From positions 1 to 42,692 of the forward strand of contig CAMDXM010000005.1 in the NCBI GenBank assembly GCA_945878025.1: a DNA stretch of 42,692 nt, given 5' to 3'. How positions within the stretch are numbered: the first letter of the stretch is position 1; each line of letters begins with the position of its first letter. Under the pieces are notes generated by a model. It was not told where the DNA came from, ran no database searches, and worked only from the letters and a program-made list of their open reading frames with translations. Shown piece after piece: positions 29,651 to 41,037 of the stretch. The position numbers and the translations under genes are program-made. Source of the stretch: Pseudorhodoplanes sinuspersici. GTDB taxonomy: Bacteria; Pseudomonadota; Alphaproteobacteria; Rhizobiales; Xanthobacteraceae.

Positions 29651-29684
29651 GAAAAGAAAGGCCGCCCTTTCGGACGGCCCTTCC
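29651..29684 (-). terminator. Intrinsic terminator of the 25-aa small gene
   Basis: Minus strand GAAGGGCCGTCC GAAA GGGCGGCCTTTC TTTTC. Confidence 0.8.
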
Positions 29685-29730
29685 ATTGTCAAACCGCAGC
29701 CCGGATCTCGGACTGTGACTGGCCGCCTTC

Positions 29731-29808
29731 TCAGACGGCGCAGCCCTCGATCGAGCCGAGGGACCAGTTCACAAGAGTCCGCGCTTGCGGCGATAGACAA
29801 TGAGACAC
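29731..29808 (-). CDS. Putative 25-aa small protein MSHCLSPQARTLVNWSLGSIEGCAV (GTG start), absent from supplied ORF track
   Basis: Full-length SD AAAGGAGGTGATCC directly before GTG; intrinsic terminator follows. Confidence 0.6.
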   Translation of the reverse strand: MSHCLSPQARTLVNWSLGSIEGCAV

Positions 29809-29907
29809 TGGATCACCTCCTTTCGGTTGTTAACGATGCGACAAATCTAGGCACAGCTTTTTGATTCGGGAAGGTCAAAACTCCAGCACGCCCTGCCGGG
29901 CGATTGA

Positions 29908-36595: not shown

Positions 36596-36670
36596 TGGTG
36601 GGCGCGACAGGGATCGAACCTGTGACCCCCTCCATGTCAAGGAGGTGCTCTCCCGCTGAGCTACGCGCCC
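36596..36670 (-). tRNA. tRNA-Val (GAC), CCA encoded
   Basis: GGGCGCGTAGCTCAGCGGGAGAGCACCTCCTTGACATGGAGGGGGTCACAGGTTCGATCCCTGTCGCGCCCACCA; 7-bp acceptor stem, loop TTGACAT. Confidence 0.97.
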
Positions 36671-37541: not shown

Positions 37542-38426
37542 ATGAACACGGACGAAGAGCTCAATCCCCCCTTCGACGTCCTGGAGCCGGCGCATTGGCG
37601 CGGCCCGGTCCTGTTCAATTCGCCGCATAGCGGGCGGATCTATCCGCGCGAATTCCTTGCCGCGTCGCGGCTCGATCTTCCGACGCTGCGGCGTTCCGAG
37701 GATACCTTCGTCGACGAACTCGTCGCCGGCGTCGTGGAGCGCGGCTATCCGCTCATGCGCGCGCATTTCCCGCGCTGCTATGTCGACGTCAACCGCGAGC
37801 CTTACGAACTCGATCCGCGCATGTTCAACGGCCGCCTGCCCTCGTTCGCCAATACGCGCTCGATGCGCGTCGCGGGCGGGCTCGGCACCGTGGCGCGCGT
37901 CGTCGGCGACGCGCAGGAAATCTACGATCAGCGTATTTCCATCGACGACGCCCTGCAGCGCATCGAAAGTCTTTACAAACCCTATCATCGCGCGCTGCGC
38001 CGGCTGTTCGGACAGATCTACAAGGACTTCGGATCCGCGATCCTGATCGATTGCCACTCGATGCCGTCGGCCACCGCCTCGCGCGACGACCGCCCGCGCG
38101 CCGACGTCGTCCTGGGCGACCGCTACGGCACGTCCTGCGTCGCCACCGTGTCGGAGGCGGTGGAGGACACGTTGCGCCAGCTCGGCTACGCGGTCAGCCG
38201 CAACAAGCCTTATGCCGGCGGCTTCATTACCGAGCATTACGGCAATCCGGGCTCCGGCCTGCATGCCATCCAGCTCGAGATCAACCGCGCGATCTATATG
38301 GACGAGAAGCGCTACGAACGCGGAGCCGATTTCGAGCGCGTCGCGGCCGATCTCGAGACCCTGGCCGACCGCGTGGCGGAGATCCCGGCCGAGGAATTGC
38401 GCCCTTACCGCTCGGCGGCCGAATAG
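37542..38426 (+). CDS. N-formylglutamate amidohydrolase family
   Basis: LFNSPHSGRIYPREFL, SEDTFVDELVAG, YVDVNREPYELDPRMF, LIDCHSMPS, HYGNPGSGLHAIQLEINRAIYMDE. Confidence 0.93.
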   Translation: MNTDEELNPPFDVLEPAHWRGPVLFNSPHSGRIYPREFLAASRLDLPTLRRSEDTFVDELVAGVVERGYPLMRAHFPRCYVDVNREPYELDPRMFNGRLPSFANTRSMRVAGGLGTVARVVGDAQEIYDQRISIDDALQRIESLYKPYHRALRRLFGQIYKDFGSAILIDCHSMPSATASRDDRPRADVVLGDRYGTSCVATVSEAVEDTLRQLGYAVSRNKPYAGGFITEHYGNPGSGLHAIQLEINRAIYMDEKRYERGADFERVAADLETLADRVAEIPAEELRPYRSAAE

Positions 38427-38602
38427 GCTCCGCGATCCGTTTTCTGCCTGCCTTATGCTGCATAGCAGCATCGCATTTCATGCAACCCGGCCGCCAGGCT
38501 TGAGCGGGGCGGATGAAGATTCGGCTTGGAGGGCGGCCGGCCGCGCCAGGCTCTTTCAGCGTCATGCCCGCCAGCAAGCCCGCAAACGTTGAAAAACCCA
38601 AG

Positions 38603-38633
38603 AAAAAAGGGCCGCTTGCAGAGCAAGCGGCCC
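38603..38633 (-). terminator. Strong intrinsic terminator of a minus-strand transcript
   Basis: GGGCCGCTTGC tct GCAAGCGGCCC TTTTTT on the minus strand. Confidence 0.9.
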
Positions 38634-38740
38634 AAGTCTAGGGAGGAAACGCCCAAGGAGGGCGGCGGGAATGAGCGAAGCTCATTGCCGCGCTGCAGCA
38701 ATATCGCATCGCGCCGCACAAAAAGCAAGAGGGTATGTCA
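38603..38740 (-). ncRNA. Putative trans-acting sRNA with anti-Shine-Dalgarno motifs (5' end approximate)
   Basis: Hairpin AATGAGC TTC GCTCATT; hairpin CGCCC TCCTT GGGCG (anti-SD loop); single-stranded GTTTCCTCCC; terminator hairpin plus T6. Confidence 0.55.
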
Positions 38741-38830: not shown

Positions 38831-40105
38831 TCAGGCCTTTCGCCAAGGATCGTGCGCCCAGAGATAGGGGATGCAGGCGGCCAGTACAAACAGCGCCTGC
38901 AGGGCGAAGACCGCGCGATAGGCGTCGAGGGCATAGGCCCCGTTCTCGATCGGAAACTGGTTGATGACGAAGCCGGTGACTGTCTGCGACAGGAACGCGC
39001 CGCCCATTGTCCCCATGTTGAGAAGGGTCATGCCGCGTCCTGCGAGATGCGGCGGGAACAGCGACTTTCCGTGGGCGATCATCACCGGAGTATAGGCGGT
39101 GGCGGCGCCGATCGCGATGAACCAGACCAGCAGCCAGCCCGCCGGCAAAACACCAAAAAAAGCGACCACCGCCAGCGTAAGGGCGGTCAGCACCGCGCCG
39201 GAAAATACCGGAATTTTATAGCTGCGGAAAATCCGGTCGGTCGGTCCGTAAAGAAACGCCGCCACGATCTGCGCGACCACGGCGGCAAACAGCATGTCGC
39301 CGCGCTCGATCAATCCGTAGCCGTAGATATGTGTCAGATAAGGCCCGCCCCACAGGCCGACCACCAGCACGAAGCTGGAATAAGCCGCGAGGTGACAGAA
39401 GAAAAGCTGCCCCATCGACCGCACGCGCAGGGCCTGCCTCAATCCAGCGATGCTTTCGCGGATCGTTTCGTGATGCACGGCGTGTCCGGCAGCGGGCTCA
39501 TCCTCGCGCACGGCCAGCGCAACCAGAATTCCGGCGAAGATCATCAGGCCTGCGATCGCGAGAAACGACGCGCGCCAGCCTATCGATGCGGCCGACCATG
39601 CCAGCGGGGCGGTGGCGAGCAGCGTTCCGAGCGTGCCGATCCCGAGCTGAAAACCGACCAGCGTGCCGAACCGTTCCGGCGGATAGCGCTTCGCGTACAG
39701 CGCCAGCGGCCCCATCAGATAGCAGCAGGAACCGGCCCCCATCAGGACGCGCGCCGCGATCAGCGTGCCCGGGTTCGTACCGATCGCGAACAGCACCGCG
39801 CCGGCCGTGGCGATCGCCGCGCAGACCAGCATGCAGATCTTCGCGCCATAGCGGTCGAGACAGACGCCGAGCGGAATCTGCGCGGCCGCGAAGGAAAAAA
39901 AGAAGGTACTGGACAGAAGCCCGATCTCGGCCGCCGACAGCGTCAGTTCGCGCGCGAGATCCGGCGCAATGACGCCGACCGAATTGCGCAAAAACTGGCT
40001 GACGACATAGATGCCGCCGAGCGTGGCGACCAGGATAACGGTCGCGCTCAATGGTATCGCAGGCCGCGCCACCGGTCCCGGTGGGGCCTTGCTTGGCATC
40101 GTCAT
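38831..40105 (-). CDS. MFS transporter
   Basis: About 12 TM; GVIAPDLARELTLSAAEIGLLSSTFFFSFAAAQIPLGVCLDRYGAK. Confidence 0.93.
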   Translation of the reverse strand: MTMPSKAPPGPVARPAIPLSATVILVATLGGIYVVSQFLRNSVGVIAPDLARELTLSAAEIGLLSSTFFFSFAAAQIPLGVCLDRYGAKICMLVCAAIATAGAVLFAIGTNPGTLIAARVLMGAGSCCYLMGPLALYAKRYPPERFGTLVGFQLGIGTLGTLLATAPLAWSAASIGWRASFLAIAGLMIFAGILVALAVREDEPAAGHAVHHETIRESIAGLRQALRVRSMGQLFFCHLAAYSSFVLVVGLWGGPYLTHIYGYGLIERGDMLFAAVVAQIVAAFLYGPTDRIFRSYKIPVFSGAVLTALTLAVVAFFGVLPAGWLLVWFIAIGAATAYTPVMIAHGKSLFPPHLAGRGMTLLNMGTMGGAFLSQTVTGFVINQFPIENGAYALDAYRAVFALQALFVLAACIPYLWAHDPWRKA

Positions 40106-40171
40106 GGACCCGGCTTCCTGACGCTTGATCGGTCGCGCCGTTTTCGTCGCATGCAAACACTTCTCCTGCAA

Positions 40172-40207
40172 GGTAACCGGCCGGTTACCCCCAAAGTTGC
40201 TCAACTT
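40172..40207. promoter_or_regulatory. Two palindromes in the MFS/hisN divergent region
   Basis: GGTAACCGGCCGGTTACC (40172-40189) and AAGTTG CT CAACTT (40194-40207). Confidence 0.65.
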
Positions 40208-40254
40208 GCGACTCTTCGATAGGTGATCGCTCCGGGTCATTTGCAGGCAATACA

Positions 40255-41037
40255 ATGACGGCCATCGATTTTGCGGCATTCGTCGACGAACTCGCCACCG
40301 TGTCCGGCGAAACGATCCGGCCGTTTTTCCGCACCACGCTCGGCGTCGACGACAAGGGCCCGGCCGGGCGCTTCGATCCGGTCACCGCCGCCGACCGCGC
40401 GGCGGAAGCCGCCATGCGCGCGATGATCAACGAGAACTTCCCCGCGCACGGCATCGTGGGCGAGGAATTCGGCAACGAACGCACGGATGCCGAATATGTC
40501 TGGGTGCTCGATCCGATCGACGGCACCAAGTCGTTCATCACCGGCATGCCGGCCTGGGGCACGCTGATCGCGCTCACCCGCAAGGGAGAGCCGGTCTACG
40601 GCATGATGCATCAGCCGTTCACGCGCGAACGCTTCACTGGCGACGGGACGGCCGCGAATTATCGCGGGCCGGCGGGCGATCGCGATCTGCATGTGCGCTC
40701 CTGCGCATCGCTGTCCGAAGCCATCCTGCTCACCACGAGCCCGCTGCTGATGAAGCCGAAGGACCGCGCCATTTTCGGCCGCGTCGAAGAGAAGGTGCGG
40801 CTGTCGCGTTATGGCGGGGATTGCTACGCCTATTGCATGCTCGCCTCGGGCCATGTCGATCTCGTGATCGAAACCGAACTCAATGCATTCGACATCGTCG
40901 CCCTGATCCCGGTCGTCACTGGCGCGGGCGGAATCATCACGTCGTGGGATGGCGGATCCGCGACCGCGGGCGGACGCATCATCGCCGCGGGCGACGCGCG
41001 CGTGCACAAGGCGGCGATGGAGATTCTGAAGGGCTGA
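40255..41037 (+). CDS. hisN: Histidinol-phosphatase, inositol monophosphatase-like
   Basis: DPVTAADRAAEAAMR, GIVGEEFG, VWVLDPIDGTKSFITGMPAWGTLIAL, SRYGGDCYAYCMLASGHVDLVIE. Confidence 0.93.
   Translation: MTAIDFAAFVDELATVSGETIRPFFRTTLGVDDKGPAGRFDPVTAADRAAEAAMRAMINENFPAHGIVGEEFGNERTDAEYVWVLDPIDGTKSFITGMPAWGTLIALTRKGEPVYGMMHQPFTRERFTGDGTAANYRGPAGDRDLHVRSCASLSEAILLTTSPLLMKPKDRAIFGRVEEKVRLSRYGGDCYAYCMLASGHVDLVIETELNAFDIVALIPVVTGAGGIITSWDGGSATAGGRIIAAGDARVHKAAMEILKG

Follow-up and report, generated by a model that had tools for sequence, protein, structure and literature searches.

The gap between an N-formylglutamate amidohydrolase (FGase) gene and an MFS gene, in the window studied here (the whole 42,692-nucleotide stretch of DNA), raises the question of whether the structured element on its minus strand is a small RNA gene in its own right and, if so, what family it belongs to and what it might regulate. 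A preliminary description had proposed an anti-SD sRNA with its own terminator, resembling the alpha-r14 or CcsR/cuckoo types. The features that define the locus are:

37542..38426, plus strand: FGase gene (Pfam PF05013, E 1.2e-73), convergent syntenic neighbour
40279..38831, minus strand: MFS gene, ending about 100 nt before the sRNA -35 box
38602..38693, minus strand: alpha-r8 sRNA (RF00519), predicted transcript of about 90 nt with its start at about 38694-38691

Identity of the minus-strand element

In an Rfam search of the whole window, the sole match above cut-off at the place of the sRNA was RF00519, at 38670..38595 on the minus strand. The covariance-model score was 71.0 bits against a cut-off of 41 (E 8e-15) and the match covered the full model (positions 1-77 of 77), while anti-hemB, RcsR1, SorY and sbrA were far under their own cut-offs over the sRNA stretch. 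Rfam lists RF00519 as suhB, 'Makes More Granules Regulator RNA' and MmgR; in Sinorhizobium meliloti it is also called SmelC689 or sm8. The features of the family are present in the window: the 10-mer UUUCCUCCCU is single-stranded and lies downstream of a weak hairpin (38649-38640), the RNA ends in a rho-independent terminator, and an FGase gene adjoins it. On sequence grounds, the element is a copy of a known and very widespread alphaproteobacterial sRNA (alpha-r8/MmgR/SuhB/SisA). The novelty implied earlier was not borne out, as the family has been in the literature since 2005 (PMC1273637) and alpha-r8 RNAs have been characterised in Sinorhizobium and Caulobacter (PMC7143759, PMC12559287).

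The gene is near-universal in this group: RF00519 scored above cut-off in 59 of 61 Xanthobacteraceae genomes and, at the level of the order, in 115 of 150. The typical alpha-r8 site is adjoining FGase (PMC12559287). Of 80 FGase-centred loci, 79 have the sRNA beyond the 3' end of FGase and on the other strand, with a median of 135 bp from the end of the FGase gene to the sRNA core; conversely, FGase lay within 3 kb in 55 of 60 RNA-centred loci, the window's own locus included. Two loci carry tandem alpha-r8 copies adjoining FGase, L080 (cores 4208, 3959) and L085 (cores 4124, 3951), and in both pairs the outer copy retains the RNA but differs in its promoter region. As the window FGase is 84% identical to the FGase of a Pseudorhodoplanes MAG, the organism is, judged by this protein, a member of the Xanthobacteraceae. 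A tRNA gene is also present in the window at 36599-36670 on the minus strand (Rfam RF00005, 68.2 bits).

The window's genome contains one clear RF00519 copy and one sub-threshold match, G000:C11:23321-23385 on the minus strand (29.9 bits). The RNA at this second place carries CCUCCC twice (AACCUCCCUGAUUUCCUCCCCC) as well as a strong GC terminator, and may be a sibling that has diverged or else a different anti-SD sRNA; a similarly weak match is seen in a genome of the same genus (G185). Within the window, a second sRNA match, to CC2171 (RF01867), was obtained at 29658-29832 on the minus strand (77.1 bits, cut-off 75). Its sequence includes AAAGGAGGTGATCCA, apparently the full complement of the 16S rRNA 3' tail, which directly precedes a 25-codon ORF starting GTGTCTCATTGTCTATCGCCGCAAGCG, and the element could represent a leader or a gene for a small protein instead of a trans-acting sRNA.

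The MFS gene shares its strand with the sRNA and ends a short distance upstream, so that the structure could be the 3' end and terminator of the MFS mRNA, or a 3'-UTR-derived RNA processed from it. However, 79 of the 80 FGase-centred loci have the sRNA but only 15 yielded a relative of the MFS gene, so the terminator is not that of the MFS gene. Conserved promoter boxes immediately upstream of the sRNA also argue against this origin, which is very improbable. The statement that no adjacent minus-strand gene explains the terminator was imprecise: the MFS gene is a minus-strand neighbour, although it does not explain the terminator.

Both alpha-r14 (NfeR1) and CcsR/cuckoo sRNAs likewise use CU-rich anti-SD loops, the latter being repeated CCUCCUCCC-loop sRNAs 3' of a cuckoo (DUF1127) gene. 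The resemblance to these types proved to be wrong. When the RNA was compared with the Rfam alpha-r families the outcome was alpha-r8 and not alpha-r14; neither the alpha-r14 model nor any CcsR model was among the matches up to E = 1, and the neighbours of the sRNA are FGase and MFS genes rather than the cuckoo gene expected for CcsR. Membership of either type is refuted and has a negligible probability.

The proposal of a minus-strand anti-SD RNA with its own terminator was sound, as this is a real sRNA gene. The preferred reading, to which a probability of about 0.93 is given, is a single-copy alpha-r8 trans-acting sRNA gene from a member of the Xanthobacteraceae near Pseudorhodoplanes, with its own promoter and terminator and a proposed role in silencing uptake genes. 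Family membership, promoter conservation, the three-hairpin structure, the presence of Hfq and PhaR genes and the enrichment of seed complements at the SD sites of solute-binding-protein genes are direct observations. The identification itself is routine annotation; the only new points, both of them minor, are a 5' hairpin that covaries but is absent from the Rfam model, and a prediction of which class of genes is targeted.

Structure of the RNA

The elements of the RNA, in 5' to 3' order, are:

38664..38691, minus strand: 5' hairpin 1, GCGG.AATGAGC-TTC-GCTCATT.CCGC, with compensatory changes, outside the Rfam model
38649..38663, minus strand: hairpin 2, CGCCC-TCCTT-GGGCG, the short conserved alpha-r8 helix of the RF00519 structure line
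38640..38649, minus strand: seed UUUCCUCCCU, the family 10-mer anti-SD core, invariant and unpaired in both fold and alignment
38602..38633, minus strand: intrinsic terminator, an 11-bp stem (38633-38609) with covarying pairs, and U tract

All four elements described earlier, i.e. hairpins 1 and 2, the unpaired segment and the 11-bp terminator with T6, were found on the minus strand of 38740-38603, and the three-hairpin architecture was correct. The fold of this stretch had an energy of -72.8 kcal/mol, compared with -55.1 kcal/mol for shuffled sequences (z = -4.65, 0/200 shuffles).

The inner part of hairpin 1, AATGAGC-TTC-GCTCATT, is at 38686-38670 on the minus strand, and the stem is longer than had been stated, with GCGG.AATGAGC pairing with GCTCATT.CCGC. 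Among 34 distinct arm pairs the arms differ in sequence yet pair in 89% of cells. There were 23 double-changed cells in these arm pairs and 0 of 2000 shuffles gave as many, although the sequences are related and the shuffles hence overstate the significance. In an alignment of 15 sequences, changes on both sides were seen in 6 of 11 consensus pairs. Judged by this covariation, hairpin 1 is a true RNA structure inside the RNA, as had been proposed. The alternative that it is a promoter palindrome, suggested by the start of the Rfam match at 38670, was ruled out by the conserved -35 and -10 boxes together with the covariation. Inspection by eye showed similar sequences in several other families of the order. 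As the conserved structure in the 2005 description of the family comprises only a short 5' helix besides the terminator (PMC1273637), the extra 5' hairpin looks like a lineage-specific addition, one that the RF00519 model seems to miss.

Hairpin 2 and the 10-mer core were invariant in 15 aligned relatives. The unpaired stretch between hairpin 2 and the terminator is GTTTCCTCCC on the minus strand, and the arms of the terminator stem, GGGCCGCTTGC/GCAAGCGGCCC, are followed by T6. No other terminator in the window combines 11 perfect base pairs with a T tract, and 10 shuffled windows contained no such terminator.

Promoter and transcriptional control

The following features were found upstream of the RNA and over its predicted start:

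38724..38729, minus strand: -35 box CTTGCT; CTTG[CA] is present here in nearly all of 81 FGase-linked copies
38700..38705, minus strand: -10 box GATATT, conserved in relatives, with CATATT in most
38704..38724, minus strand: PhaR/AniA-like site 1, TTTTTGTGCGGCGCGATGCGA, between the -35 and -10 boxes, 19/21 motif positions
38683..38703, minus strand: PhaR/AniA-like site 2, TATTGCTGCAGCGCGGCAATG, over the predicted start, 20/21 motif positions

No promoter was found here by a generic sigma-70 scan because the -35 box is CTTGCT and not TTGACA. A sigma-54 promoter was rejected, as no GG-N10-GC at the right spacing was seen by eye. In S. meliloti, mmgR starts at 3046712-13 (PMC7143759, PMC2573895) and the PhaR site is at 3046679-3046699 (PMC12542648), the start thus being 13-14 nt after the site; transfer of this spacing to the window gives about 38691. 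The predicted start at 38694-38691 follows from this spacing and the position of the -10 box, and on this basis the transcript would be about 90 nt long and include hairpin 1, though the Rfam model begins only at 38670. A sigma-70-type promoter (38729-38700) would initiate this transcript, which would end at the 11-bp terminator.

A dual role for the RNA, as the message for a 23-residue peptide, had also been suggested: the ORF, MRYCCSAAMSFAHSRRPPWAFPP, is readable in the window and open in the closest relatives (L061, L066), but its ATG (38709-38707) is in the promoter spacer just upstream of the -10 box and the predicted start, hence outside the transcript, and is replaced by GTG, AGA, CCG, GTC or GCC in other relatives, among which the frame also shifts as the length of hairpin 1 changes, so that there would seem no reason to assume translation and such a role is extremely unlikely.

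The PhaR-like sites were scored with the S. meliloti motif. Site 1 is at the same position as the site between the boxes of the S. meliloti mmgR promoter, where PhaR binding has been proven by EMSA (PMC12542648). Its core, GTGCRNYGCR, is retained in 77 of 81 copies and that of site 2, TGCRNYGCRRYA, in 74; both cores are present in 72 copies and are 21-22 bp apart in 70 of these. Since the GC-rich window holds 150 hits to the bare core, it is conservation and position, and not rarity, that support the sites. PhaR is encoded in the window's genome (149.8 bits), and repression of the sRNA gene by PhaR is likely. By analogy with Sinorhizobium, the two sites suggest control by carbon-storage status: PhaR would repress the promoter until PHB accumulates, and uptake would then fall under carbon surplus.

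Predicted targets

The seed UUUCCUCCCU is identical to that of Caulobacter SisA. In Caulobacter, pairing of the same 10-mer with target mRNAs, and with the RNA CrfA, has been proven; through it SisA pairs with SD sites and so represses transporters, TonB receptors among them, and CrfA acts as the sponge of SisA (PMC12559287). Hfq is encoded in the window's genome (112 bits) and would be expected to bind the sRNA. The exposed seed would pair with purine-rich SD sites, and the mRNAs of periplasmic solute-binding proteins (TRAP DctP, Peripla_BP_6, SBP_bac_1) and of some metabolic genes would thereby be blocked from translation. The RNA most likely acts as an off-switch for nutrient uptake, masking the ribosome-binding sites of the genes concerned.

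The genome holds six instances of a 9-nt seed complement followed by ATG and none of the reversed pattern. Four of these six genes encode solute-binding proteins (Peripla_BP_6, SBP_bac_1 and two DctP), and a control SD pattern, AAGGAGGT...ATG, gave six hits in the same genome, none with a solute-binding-protein-like translation. A first enrichment test was circular, its query proteins having been picked in part by the motif, and all analysable DctP (PF03480) and Peripla_BP_6 (PF13458) genes above the Pfam cut-off were therefore taken as the target set; the background genes came from a 1.19-Mb share of the 3.94-Mb assembly. Within the 25 nt before the start, gene starts being chosen by script, a perfect seed complement of at least 7 nt was found in 17 of 34 of these TRAP/branched-chain-type solute-binding-protein genes compared with 26 of 1077 others (Fisher p 4e-17). 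When only genes with a strong SD were considered the figures were 17 of 26 and 19 of 316, and when the flanks around GGAGG were permuted, 0 of 289 control motifs hit as many solute-binding-protein genes. With total duplex energy as the ranking criterion the signal was weak, solute-binding proteins making up 3 of the top 30 targets, in contrast to the clear signal from contiguous seed complementarity. In four relatives, inspection by eye showed the seed pattern in a mixed gene set, with clear solute-binding proteins in some.

The complementarity between seed and SD sites is strong, but it is not proof of regulation. There may be other reasons why the solute-binding-protein genes keep this SD, and the real user of these sites could be a different anti-SD sRNA, e.g. 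the G000:C11:23321-23385 RNA. Half of the DctP and Peripla_BP_6 genes in the target set keep an extended seed complement in the SD region, and on this basis the alpha-r8 RNA of Xanthobacteraceae might, at somewhat less than even odds, be a global switch for TRAP and branched-chain-type ABC solute-binding proteins, with a lineage-specific covarying 5' hairpin compared with the 77-nt MmgR. No direct pairing of MmgR has been identified in rhizobia (PMC12559287). Direct mRNA targets of alpha-r8 are therefore lacking there, and the seed-SD match supplies a concrete, testable set.

Comparison with known systems

In rhizobia, AbcR1 and AbcR2 silence the solute-binding proteins of transporters by anti-SD pairing. 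PMC8844928 describes, in outline, a rewiring of metabolism by AbcR. The mode proposed for the window RNA is similar but the sRNA family is different: no AbcR family was among the Rfam matches for the sRNA stretch, where RF00519 was well above cut-off.

The suhB element of Agrobacterium and other alphaproteobacteria (PMC1273637) belongs to the same Rfam family as the window RNA and shares its own promoter and terminator, an unstructured conserved core and a short 5' helix. That helix and the terminator are the only conserved structure given for it by Corbino et al. (2005), whereas the Xanthobacteraceae copies add a further 5' hairpin.

MmgR of S. meliloti has hairpin 2, the 10-mer core and the terminator in common with the window RNA, which at about 90 nt is longer than the 77-nt MmgR. 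The PhaR/AniA site between the mmgR promoter boxes (PMC12542648) has a PhaR-like counterpart there in the window, and genes for both Hfq and PhaR are present in the window's host too.

SisA of Caulobacter crescentus (alpha-r8) has the UUUCCUCCCU core, a site downstream of FGase and transporter-type targets (PMC12559287), as does the window RNA, for which the targets are predicted. Caulobacter has four siblings and the sponge CrfA, whereas the window's genome has its one clear copy and one sub-threshold match, and the targets of SisA are TonB receptors, whereas those predicted for the window RNA are TRAP and ABC solute-binding proteins.
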